Part shown: one piece after another, positions 19,090 to 26,896 of the stretch
Layout of the letters: every line of letters starts with the position of its first letter
Numbering within the stretch: the stretch's first letter is position 1
Assembly (NCBI GenBank): GCA_021234155.1
Contig: JAJEKV010000025.1
Location: 1,381,995-1,445,994, forward strand
Direction: 5' to 3'
From: Isoetes taiwanensis
Taxonomy: Eukaryota > Streptophyta > Lycopodiopsida > Isoetales > Isoetaceae
Length of the DNA stretch: 64,000 nucleotides
Program-made: the position numbers and the translations under genes
Notes under the pieces: model-generated
Told to the model about the DNA's origin: nothing
The model's input: only the letters and a program-made list of their open reading frames with translations
The model's database searches: none

Positions 19090-19483
19090 TTCATGGCTTC
19101 CTGACCGTAATCGTCGCCAATTTACCTACAAAGAGCTCAAGCTTGCAACAAACAATTTCAACAAAAAATGAGATACTAGGGGAGGAGGATATGGTCATGT
19201 TTTTAAAGGGATTTATTGAAGGTGGTGAACCTCAGTAGCGTGAAAAAAAAGATCATCAAAAAAATGCAAGCAGTGAAAAAATACATGATGGCAGAGGCAG
19301 ACATAATGGGCAGACTTAATAATCCTAATCTGGTTCAGCTCAAAGGCTGGTGTTACCACAGTGGAGCACTGCTACTAGTCTATGAATATCTTCAAAATGG
19401 CAGCCTAGATGATCATTTATTCAATGAAGAAATAAATCTGCCATGGCAAAGAAGATACAATATTCTGAAAGGATTAGCATCTG
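19090..19483 (+). pseudogene. Receptor-like kinase, N-lobe fragment
   Basis: The frame begins with a juxtamembrane motif typical of plant receptor-like kinases (FTYKELKLATNNF), then a glycine-rich loop (GGYGHVFKG). Next come a lysine-containing AVKK-like stretch, the alpha-C region (MAEADIMGRL), then NLVQLKGWC and LLLVYEYLQNGSLDDHLF. It ends at RYNILKGLASA, just before the expected LYLHEE. The catalytic-loop HRD and the DFG motif are absent, so it cannot be an active kinase. Reading it needs frame changes: one base missing from a G run in the glycine loop, one extra A before it, and more around AVKK. It ends sharply at a segment of the GH20 gene in opposite orientation. Such kinases normally sit in the plasma membrane; the subfamily cannot be told. 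Confidence 0.8.
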
Positions 19484-19592
19484 CCACAATCTCTGGATAT
19501 GCTGATCCCCAAGAAGCTGAATGTGCTGCAAAATTTTATATAACCTAAGACTCTATTATATCAGACCCTAGAATTCAAATGAATATGTATAC
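19484..19592 (-). repeat. Second copy of GH20 intron 1 and exon start
   Basis: After LVLGGE the minus strand shows a GT donor (19591-19592) and a 67-bp intron (19526-19592) with an intact TTTTGCAG acceptor. An exon start reading HSASWGSAYPEIV follows. That peptide belongs after PEIDAPG in exon A, not after LVLGGE. The segment matches 20252-20351. A ~45-base intron core is identical in both copies, whereas the exon parts differ at many bases. The copy is cut at 19484 by the kinase fragment. Confidence 0.8.
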
Positions 19593-20665
19593 CTCTCCAC
19601 CCAGAACTAGTTCTTTCTCCTTCTTACTAAGCCCCACATCATTGATGTCAAAATCATAAATGTTACGCCATGTCTTAAATGGATTACACCATGATCCACC
19701 ATCTCCTCCATTTTCCATTGTATCATCTTGGCCGTCATTGCCCGAAATCCTCCATGACCACGTCTAAATAGTAGAAATCATTTGAAGAAACTATAGCTCA
19801 GAACTTTCCTTGATGATGGTTTTGTCTTTGCTCAATCCGCACTCCAAGTTTGAATAATGGTGGAGGATTTTTGGAAGCAAAGAAGAGCTTGCATTTACTT
19901 CCGCACCAAGCAATATATCTTCCCGGTAAACAACCATCTTGCTATGGCTGGTGATTTTAGGGTAAGTGTTTTTGATGAACGTGTCTAACAAATATCGCAT
20001 TCTTTGAGCCCGCCTAGCCTTGTTACAAGCTTCGGCTATGGCTTGATCGTTTCCCGAAGATTTGGAGCTACCTCATCTCCTCCCAGGCATGAAAAAAACT
20101 CTGGAAATAGATCTCCTATGGCATCTATGACATTCTTGACCACCGTGTATGTTTTCCTAGGTTTAGAGGATTAAGGCGGCCGGTCACCGCTCAAGCCATT
20201 CTTTCGCTCCATGGTTTTGAAGAATCAAACCAAAATTCATTCCGGCAAGTCACAATCTCCGGATATCTTTGATCCCAAAGTTGAATGTTTGCAAAATTTT
20301 ATATAACCTAAGACTCTATTATATCAGACCCTAGAAATCAAATGAATATACCTGGAGCATCGATTTCTGGTATTACCCTAACTCCGACAGATCGTGCATA
20401 GCTGATAATCTTCTTCACATCTGCAGGATAATCACGCGGAAGCGAACCGTAAGAGCCTTTAAGCGAGGCGGTCCGGCTCGGCGAAATATGAATGGGAAAA
20501 GACTGTGAATCCGTGATGTGCCAATGAAAAACATTAAGCTCGTGCGTAGAATGTCTGCAACGGGGTAAAAATTTCTAGATGTATCAAGAAGAACACCCCC
20601 GTGTGGAAACAGAGCACAACCCATTGCTATTCCACAAAATCTTGTTACTTGGGTCTCAAATCTCT
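19484..20665 (-). pseudogene. GH20 beta-hexosaminidase, broken copy
   Basis: Beta-N-acetylhexosaminidases of GH20 remove terminal GlcNAc/GalNAc from glycans in plant vacuole or apoplast. On the minus strand, exon A (20665 to 20352) gives GVLLDTSRNFYPVADILRT, LNVFHWHITDSQSFPI and VGVRVIPEIDAPG. About eight residues are missing between LRT and LNV. Exon B (from about 20289) gives YPEIVTC, TYTVVKNVIDAIGDLFPEFF, GGDEV with the catalytic Asp-Glu pair, SKMVVYREDILLGAEV, TIIQTWS, SNDFYYLD and GSWCNPFKTWRNIYDFDI, ending at LVLGGE (about 19593). Signal peptide, N-domain and C-terminus are missing. At least four frameshifts occur, including one beside GGDEV. The intron (20290-20351) has a GT donor but a damaged acceptor. 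Below exon B, intron 1 and the start of exon B occur again (19484-19592). Family is certain; non-function is likely. Confidence 0.87.
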
Positions 20666-24574: not shown

Positions 24575-25750
24575 TAATAAATGCAAAAGTATAATTCATT
24601 TTCTTCGCAATGGTTTCTTCTCTATACTAATACTTATTGTTGGCACGACTACAAAATAACAGAAGATCAAACACTCAATGTTTCAAATCATTATAAATAT
24701 GAACAAGTCTAAAAACCTTGAATAAGTCTAAATTTTCCTAAATACGTCATAAGATCTTTTTCATTTGATGAGTTTAGCTTCACATTTGATTTATCTTTGT
24801 GTTCGTTTTGATATTTTGGAAATGATTTTCAAAGAGTAGGCCCATACAGATTATCTAACTTTCGCTTCTCTTTGACTTTTACTTGGACTTTCATTGTACT
24901 TTTTTCAGTTGATTTTTGCATAGAGTCGCCTATGGCAATTCCTTAGAATAGATACATTCAAGTTGATGTAGTCCCTAAATATAACTTTGACTTTATATTT
25001 AAGTCTCAATTTGGAGTTGACTTTTGGTTTGGAGTTAATTTTTAATGGTTTGGCTTAGCACTCACCTATCTACATTCATTCGGAAATTAGATAGAGTTGC
25101 TTATAGAATCTCAAGGAATATAAATCTAACAATACAATATTTCACATTTAGCATAAGAAGTATTTTGGACGACAACAACTTTGCACTCACTTACAATCTT
25201 TAAATAACAAGGGCTCAAATAAGGGATAAAGGGGTCCATCATCATTCATCTTTGGCCCAATAAATAAGAGGAAAACCTACAAAATAAGATTGTATAGATC
25301 ATGCTGATGTAAATTTAAAAAAAAAAAAGGGCCCTATATCACCTATACCCTTTTTTTTTTTTTTTTTTTGCAATTGTTGGTTGAAGTTTCGAACAAATAA
25401 GTTGCAATGTAAAGTCAAATGGGCCAGACTTTGTGTGGTGTATGCTTAAACATGTTGATATCTTCGGACATTTAAAAAATATTATTCCTTTTTATTCTAT
25501 TATATAATGTTATTCTATTCCATTTCTATAATTAATGTTGTAGATAACAAGATTGTAGGAAAATGAGCACTTCTTAAGATCTTGGGACTTTGTATCTTGA
25601 TTAAAGGTTTTGCATGCCATTCTACATTCATATAAATCATAAATGTTCTATCCCATTCTATTCCATTTATAAACATCATGTCTTCTTTTATGTTCACTTG
25701 TACATACAATTCCTTTGTTCTGTTTTCCATTTCATATCAATAAGGATAAT
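24575..25750. other. AT-rich spacer, no gene
   Basis: It contains an A run beginning near 25318 and a T run at about 25352-25370, and TTCTATTCCATT-type short words near 25490-25530. No gene is seen between the DUF7869 frame and the 3' end of GGPPS. Confidence 0.5.
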
Positions 25751-26896
25751 CTAATTTTGTCTATAAAAAATATAATCGGCAAGATGTAACAAAGGGGCAG
25801 CTTTATCTTGCTCAAAAATAGCAAGGTGCTTCTTGGCCCTTTCATTTAACTCTTTAGCAAACTGCCTAGACTTTGCTAGGCCTAGGAGCTTGGGGTAAGT
25901 TGCTTTATCAGCAGCAATATCTTTACCAGCAGTCTTCCCAAGTTCTTCAGAAGATTTGGTAACATCAAGAATATCATCAACAACTTGAAAAAGAAGTCCG
26001 ACATCGCGAGCATATTTCCGCAACCTCTCAACCTCGTCCCCATTAGCCCTCCCAGTATAGCCCCAGAGACCACAGATGCTTCTAGGAGGCGCGGTCTTAT
26101 GAAGATGGACATACTCCAAGGGTCTCGAGGGTAACATTAGGGTCACCCCTCAGAGGGCAAGTCAACGACTTGACCGGCGACGAGACGCTTGGGACCAACA
26201 GCGCGACCGAGTTCGCGAACGACGAAGAGGGATACGCTCGGCAGGGACACTTCAGGGAGTCACGAGCGACGGAAAGCGAGGGTAGCGAGGGCGTCGCCGG
26301 CGAGGACGGCAGTGGGTCGCCGAAGACCTTGTGGCTAGTGGGTTGGACTGCGACGGAGTCATCGTTGTTGTCCATGCAAGGGAGGTCATCATGGATAAGG
26401 GACATGGTGTGCAACATTTCAAGGGAACAAGCGGCAGGCATGGCAATGGTTTGGGAGCCACCGAAAAGCTCACATGCAGCAATGCAAAGGGCGGGCCTAA
26501 CGCGCTTACCTCCGGCCAGAAGCGAGTAGCGCATTGCTTCATGGATGATCTCCGGGTACTGCAGCGGCACCGCCTCCGCTAGCGCAGCGTTCACGGCCAT
26601 GGCCTCGACATCATGTAAGTCTTGAAACTGAAAACTAGTTGCCTCTTCAATCCCTCTTCAATCCCCGCTTCCAATCGTCGCTTCTTCCACCACAGACACA
26701 GACGCCGCATCGGCTATGGCGGATAAAGCCCTAAATCCGGCGCCATTGCTCCATTTCCCTCCCACCCTAAATGAACGCTCCTTCTTGCTTGAGATTTTTG
26801 TTGTGACTTTGAGGAATTTGAGGAAACAGGTCCGCCGGATTCGTGCTCTGTACTGCTGCTGATCCAAGGTTCTGGCATCCCAATGGATGCTGCCAT
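25751..26896 (-). pseudogene. GGPPS: Geranylgeranyl diphosphate synthase, frameshifted
   Basis: GGPPS condenses isopentenyl diphosphate with allylic diphosphates to make C20 GGPP for carotenoids, chlorophyll and gibberellins, usually in plastids. Start ATG at 26896 opens a Ser-rich leader (MAASIGMPEPWISSS) fit for a transit peptide. Then come [31 protein letters not shown], the first Asp-rich motif [70 protein letters not shown] and [13 protein letters not shown] (second Asp motif). [13 protein letters not shown] and the end at YRQN, TAG 25751-25753, follow. About 381 codons' length fits the family and there is no intron. These blocks fall in all three frames, with roughly ten frame changes, mostly in G/C-rich parts; the last ~100 codons are clean. 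Either a young pseudogene, possibly a retrocopy, or a real gene with consensus indels. No internal missense loss of catalytic Asp residues is seen. Confidence 0.9.

Follow-up and report, generated by a model that had tools for sequence, protein, structure and literature searches.

Six gene pieces in Isoetes taiwanensis: very probably a Helitron, a nested repeat and a cut-off repeat end beside a GGPPS locus

Pack-type DNA transposons, for example Pack-MULEs, carry pieces of host genes together with their introns. We analysed a stretch of 64,000 nucleotides from Isoetes taiwanensis, called the window throughout (positions 1381995-1445994 of contig C1029, in a genome of 1.66 Gb and 1110 contigs), in which pieces of six genes lie close together: GH20, NRAMP, MAEA and GGPPS on the minus strand, and RLK and DUF7869 on the plus strand. 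Multi-gene capture and nesting are already known for the Helitrons of maize, which, in the part of the description used here (PMC3288121), end 3' in CTAG and combine pieces of several genes in one element; capture in steps, and nesting, have been proposed for them. The structure of Helitron ends is described in PMC4067079, as are HINE/DINE-1 elements; for HINE, the relevant section gives subterminal inverted repeats of 12-15 base pairs (bp) at both ends and T-rich boundaries. The cluster in the window is very probably layered mobile DNA: a Helitron carrying NRAMP and MAEA pieces, a nested repeat, element A, carrying RLK and GH20 pieces, and the cut-off end of a large DUF7869 repeat, repeat C, all beside a GGPPS locus. 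Direct evidence for it consists of the Helitron ends, sister copies, two empty sites, the absence of element A from a second copy of the locus and from five sister Helitrons, a GH20 gene on contig C930, and open relatives of GGPPS. Compared with what that source reports for maize, this locus differs in its genome, in its NRAMP and MAEA cargo, in the lack of a 5' end in the window copy, and in the joining to a DUF7869 repeat. Nesting suffices to account for the cluster, so that a preferred landing site for fragments, offered by the original prediction, is not needed; and since sister copies exist, no test of clustering against chance was necessary for the two pairs.

Contig C1055 holds the second copy of the neighbourhood: pieces of window positions 7357-40599 can be aligned, in unchanged order, with C1055:10908068-10934060. 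No counterpart exists there for two large stretches, 18138-20983 and 31691-36307 (the latter 4.6 kb long), and about 11.7-13.3 kb aligns poorly. Between 21,000 and 26,000, the two contigs differ by 40 substitutions in 5,024 columns. Five further loci match window positions 16928-18137 and 20984-23216: one each on C916, C910 and C1031, and two on C1071. These sister copies (L004 to L008) represent four independent insertion sites, as L005 and L007 share their flanks; the one on C1031 lacks an internal part that includes most of NRAMP. All five start at the identical base, ACTAGAAA..., the sequence to the left of it being of four kinds, and have in common a right border ..GGA/T, the slash marking the edge of the element. 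Read on the minus strand, the Helitron is thus A/TCCTATATTATAAAACCGTGG ... GCCCACCAACGGTGGGCAATTTTCTAG/T.

These borders carry the canonical Helitron features. The 5' TC and 3' CTRR ends were found in 5/5 sisters (TCCTATATT... and CTAG), and the window has the 3' end only. CTAG is followed by a host T in all five and in C1055; in the window this T is the plus-strand A at 16928. The hairpin GCCCACC-AAC-GGTGGGC, 10 nucleotides from the 3' end (-12.5 kcal/mol with RNA parameters), corresponds to the palindrome of 16-20 nucleotides lying about 11 nucleotides before the 3' end of canonical Helitrons. It is intact in four of the five sisters and in C1055, and altered in L007 and in the window, where a search with the hairpin pattern gave no match because the window hairpin has extra bases. 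The A/T target is kept, with no target duplication, in 5/5 copies. The sisters start 5' with TCCTATATTATAAAA... and finish 3' with the order hairpin, AATTTT, CTAG, in agreement with the Helitron ends as far as PMC4067079 describes them. The original prediction had found no Helitron ends; the 3' end, at 16928, lies to the left of the span it covered (19090-26896). Its proposal to align copies and look for shared outer boundaries proved fruitful, since the five sisters share both ends.

From border to border, three sisters measure about 5.35 kb (L004, 5,350 bases; L006, 5,371; L007, 5,388), while L005, whose Helitron part is interrupted, has 8,032 bases and L008 has 3,790. Searches with joined flanks yielded empty sites for two of the four independent insertions. 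For L006 it is C898:380486-380791, 99% identical across the joint, as seen in the alignment; L005 sits in a repeat, of which at least 39 copies run across the joint at 94-95%. Among 50 matches listed for the 3' part, 10 other loci start at the same first base and continue for 613-765 bases, 6 more match for 192-240 bases, and 4 for about 50. Helitron helicases are also present in the genome: for Helitron_like_N (PF14214), 150 of 150 scored matches (the best of 1813 rough candidates) were over the cut-off, in frames of up to 2,964 amino acids.

Six places, among them the window and C1055, have at least 2,190 of the 2,233 bases of the NRAMP and MAEA cargo. The MAEA piece was recognised by its CTLH domain (PF10607, 1.2e-07, over the cut-off) and by a MAEA chain (9snh, 1.8e-06); an adjoining frame of 64 amino acids has no Pfam family and a MAEA match of only 0.44. 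PF10607 has 24 matches in the genome, those of the window and C1055 among them, some in long open frames such as C1059:9561341-9561763. The NRAMP piece stays below the Pfam cut-off (0.0094), and its identity comes from DNA 72% identical to C1043:14168232-14168666, where PF01566 exons lie; this match continues through the gap between the two exon matches, which implies that an intron was kept. Short Helitron-like stretches lie beside an NRAMP piece at 76% in L029 (C1031:17999000-18001999), an arrangement that suggests an old capture.

Element A is considered a nested insertion because the C1055 copy and the five sister Helitrons are without it: the sequence GAGCTATTACAATCCAAG, which spans the 18137/20984 site, is unbroken once in each of them and absent from the window. 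Near its left end lies an inverted repeat with arms of at least 104-144 bp and, in the window, a loop of 181 bp. The left module (18640-19099) is high copy, like the right one (best 40 of 3196 rough candidates scored), and the right end ..GCTASATATT was found in 10/10 copies examined (the window, L009-L012 and L022-L026), whereas the left border varies, other copies starting elsewhere. The RLK and GH20 pair recurs on C1081, C1078 (two places), C1100, C985 and C1035. In several other loci the RLK match ends at one and the same base (query 377), and L012 retains a longer kinase frame by eye. Other cargo, PPR-protein-like in appearance, is carried by L024 and L026, which are near-identical to each other. 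The GH20 piece (PF00728, 5.2e-16) is likely to derive from the GH20 gene of C930 (L013, C930:16082500-16087499), as judged from its two open exons (profile positions 1-102 and 102-347) and its collinearity with the piece. Retention of introns, claimed by the original prediction for its fragments, thus holds in the two cases checked, GH20 and NRAMP.

Empty sites for the window, L024, L025 and L026 revealed no target duplication. About 2 bp of the target was lost in the window, about 41 bp in L026 and about 75 bp in L024 (C1034 and C914 sites, from the alignment); in L025 nothing was lost, apart from a TATT common to the host and the element end. Apart from the window, three of five prepared sites were resolved; L009 returned its own flank only, and L022 was not in the query. 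Contiguous-looking matches on C1064 and C1025 at the L024 joint were ruled out as empty sites by alignment. In a comparison of L009-L012 and L022-L026 for target duplications, exact words of 7-10 bases were found, none at a defensible left border, and were treated as chance. The right end recurs in inverted orientation in L009 (22 bases, 2 errors), 166 bases outside the homologous part; L024 and L026 contain 13 exact bases of this inverted sequence, well away from the left border of either, and with up to 5 errors nothing was found in the other 7 of 10 copies. Around 407-418 of L026, element A lies within an apparent Copia polymerase frame, by eye.

Element A is the least explained part of the cluster, given its lack of target duplication, its inverted repeat near one end and its differing gene cargo. 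The pairing of terminal inverted repeats with a target duplication of fixed length, typical of Pack-type elements, was not seen in it. Intron-bearing host gene pieces are shared with Pack-MULEs, but terminal inverted repeats with target duplications were found for neither element A nor the Helitron. To HINE/DINE-1, as far as PMC4067079 presents them, element A is similar in its lack of target duplication, its inverted repeat near one end, its high copy number and the T-runs at the common left border of L025 and L026 (of 4 and 9, seen in these two only). It is unlike them in its much larger inverted repeat, its gene-fragment cargo, its copy-variable left border and its target losses, which reach about 75 bp. 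Subterminal inverted repeats are uncertain in it, and no partner protein was identified. Only with low confidence do we propose that it represents a type of gene-capturing mobile DNA not described before. Its copies may number in the thousands, with a single constant end, a fold-back repeat towards the other, a variable border and changing cargo, and its insertion would duplicate no target and remove either nothing or as much as about 75 bp. Such an element might be related, within plants, to those of Helentron type, or represent another one-ended route of DNA insertion.

The DUF7869 frame (PF25273, 5.7e-42) belongs to a separate repeat. In 4/4 other copies (L014-L017), homology runs left past 23215 and stops at 24750-24752; the window piece is the last 1,536 bases of a repeat that exceeds 12 kb. 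The resemblance of L014 and L016 persists for about 11.6 kb and 12.4 kb, a length within which the left end was not reached and which was not shown to be one element throughout. The original prediction had the frame as intact and possibly part of a capturing element, which did not hold: it is truncated at its 5' end and finishes prematurely at a TGA (24005-24007) that is also present in C1055, where L014 and L016 have tryptophan. L016 has a DUF7869 match of 5.1e-48 and, upstream, a frame that matches Transposase_23 below the threshold (0.0074). In L027, the opposite strand encodes a NIF phosphatase frame (4.2e-21). Tandem units of about 155 bp were observed within the repeat in L014/L027 and L016/L028. 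By eye, 2-4 bases of possible microhomology are visible at the junction with the Helitron. In none of the loci examined was the right end repeated in inverted form at a terminus; the protein gave only weak ribosomal-protein matches against PDB sequences (best 0.073), and a literature search on the word DUF7869 found no paper. The coordinates of all layers are collected in Table 1.

Table 1. Features of the cluster, in window coordinates
Feature	Position	Strand	Remarks
Helitron 3' terminus	16929-16958	-	CTAG 16929-16932, spacer AATTTT, subterminal hairpin 16939-16958 (altered in window)
Helitron 3' part	16929-18137	-	same left border in sister copies; 10 other loci match from same first base
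Element A, high-copy repeat nested in Helitron	18138-20984		junctions placed to within a few bases; not in C1055 or L004-L008
Inverted repeat left arm, left end of element A	18158-18301	+	144 bp, 96.5% to 18483-18626 inverted
Inverted repeat right arm, element A	18483-18626	-	pairs with 18158-18301
RLK kinase N-lobe piece, in element A	19112-19486	+	PF07714, 1.3e-12
Extra copy of GH20 intron region, adjoining RLK piece	19485-19586	-	100% over 102 bases to L013 (C930); 88% to window 20251-20349
GH20 piece (exon 1 end, intron and part of exon 2)	19590-20623	-	89% collinear with C930 gene
Element A right terminal module, high copy	20686-20984		at least 27 matches at 95-97% (best 40 of 2361 candidates)
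Helitron cargo	20985-23216	-	NRAMP piece about 21029-22542, MAEA piece 22556-23216
Repeat C, truncated 3' end	23215-24750	+	joined to broken Helitron at 23215/23216; right border common to other copies read
Resident GGPPS-family locus	24763-26900	-	coding about 25751-26880; frame broken by window-private small indels

Such a layering could have arisen as follows. A non-autonomous minus-strand Helitron carrying the NRAMP and MAEA pieces, with its 3' end at 16928, would have moved by the rolling-circle route, its helicase being supplied by other Helitrons. About 2 kb of its 5' part is missing, with a switch at 23215/23216 to the truncated end of the large DUF7869 repeat, which abuts the GGPPS-family gene at about 24751-24762. 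Element A, with its RLK and GH20 pieces, very probably inserted later into the Helitron, in the window copy. We infer the gene-capture steps, as well as the events by which the Helitron, the DUF7869 piece and the GGPPS locus became joined.

The GGPPS locus (PF00348, 1.5e-13 and 1.9e-16) had been listed as a broken captured piece; it is nearly full length, covering known GGPPS chains from near their start up to and including the final residue. The stretch 24763-26900 matches many places (C1029:1.00-1.25 Mb, C1055:10.55-10.88 Mb, C1049 and C559), the longer matches at 86-93%, and open frames exist in the C1055 counterpart (406 residues), L031 (386) and L033 (398), the frame of L032, on C1055 itself, being broken. 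None of the other five pieces lies beside the four relatives read, in the stretch fetched. Judged from these relationships, GGPPS is not a captured piece and is a member of a resident, locally amplified family. The order of this family differs between C1029:1.00-1.25 Mb and C1055:10.55-10.88 Mb, with several frames open.

Private changes were counted as substitutions/insertions/deletions. Over 1,200 columns of GGPPS they amount to 24/11/11 in the window, 1/0/0 in C1055, 0/0/0 in L031, 3/6/2 in L032 and 17/0/0 in L033; over 16928-18137, to 53/19/4 in the window, 0/0/0 in C1055, 1/0/3 in L004, 16/4/6 in L006, 42/4/5 in L007 and 16/49/6 in L008, L005 being left out as interrupted. Changes relative to C1055 are dense at 7-18 kb and 26-41 kb, in the latter chiefly as indels as far as 28 kb, and few fall at 21-26 kb; the dense stretches, 7000-18000 and 26000-41000, resemble unpolished sequence, and the 21-26 kb block agrees with C1055. 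Lacking a C1055 counterpart, element A and its RLK and GH20 pieces could not be compared in this way. A genuine recent pseudogene would also explain the private changes of the window GGPPS (24 substitutions, 22 indel columns), and L032, with 8 private indel columns, indicates that broken members may exist. The excess, however, extends beyond coding DNA and sits on the window side of the pair, which divergence at equal rates would not give, and a pseudogene is therefore unlikely, though it retains some weight. Sequence error in the window contig would be the simplest reading of the dense private changes, frameshifts in GGPPS included, and the resident gene is probably intact. The broken frame of L032 shows that C1055, too, may hold error-like stretches.

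Could such errors explain the whole cluster, as complete neighbouring genes that only look broken? They are plausible for GGPPS (22 private indel columns in the window and 0 in C1055), and the 76 private changed columns at 16928-18137 (0 in C1055) and the density at 7-18 and 26-41 kb point the same way. NRAMP, MAEA and DUF7869, however, lie in the block at 21-26 kb, where window and C1055 agree, sister copies on other contigs have the Helitron pieces cut in the same manner, and the RLK match ends at query 377 in several other loci; the explanation is very improbable. The idea of one capture element spanning all six genes, suggested by their presence within 8 kb and by two pairs that do travel together, is the least credible of all, as element A is missing from C1055 and from the five sisters, the joint between Helitron and DUF7869 is spanned by the window and C1055 only, among the matches listed, and the four GGPPS relatives read have none of the other pieces alongside in the stretch fetched.

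The layered reading is thus preferred, and several points weigh against it. The joint of Helitron and DUF7869 is covered by just two of 41 matches listed (best 40 of 156 candidates). The Helitron 5' end is not recognisable in the window (with up to 3 mismatches, 0 matches to a 20-mer, and 5 to a 15-mer with 4.3 expected), so that the full extent of this copy is drawn from the sisters. Joined flanks of L004 and L008 gave no empty site among the best 40 candidates, a repeat having filled the list, and none of the Helitron_like_N helicase genes was linked by its ends to the family with NRAMP and MAEA. No RLK parent was identified, and long NRAMP matches (at least 700 bases) outside Helitron copies reach only 69-76% identity.

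Elsewhere in the window, G+C rises to 56-59% at 50000-64000, a 283-bp tandem array lies at 49942-50644, similar frames occur 3.8 kb apart at 56652-57311 and 60449-61075, and 12000-14000 has a strong purine skew (GC skew 0.38, AT skew 0.31). An Rfam search of the window at the gathering threshold gave no match, 50000-64000 included.

With respect to the original prediction, the six gene identities were upheld: RLK, GH20, DUF7869 and GGPPS by Pfam, MAEA by PF10607 and the chain, and NRAMP through the C1043 match. The genome search it proposed found relatives elsewhere for each of the six pieces, and a GH20 gene on C930. Capture of gene pieces as DNA stands for NRAMP and MAEA in the Helitron and for RLK and GH20 in element A, and fails for a single unit of six, element A being nested, DUF7869 a separate repeat end, and GGPPS resident. 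Frames in parts of the window are broken by error-like changes, and GGPPS, listed as broken, has an open counterpart.

The cluster is ordinary in kind, given the multi-gene capture and nesting of Helitrons in maize, at the level of detail given in PMC3288121; what makes it valuable is its dissection, together with element A. An odd cluster is resolved into identifiable layers, with two different mobile families, each gene-capturing, nested one in the other, and for these nested capture elements both sister copies and empty sites are available, as is a likely parent gene. Element A and the large DUF7869 repeat merit description as families.

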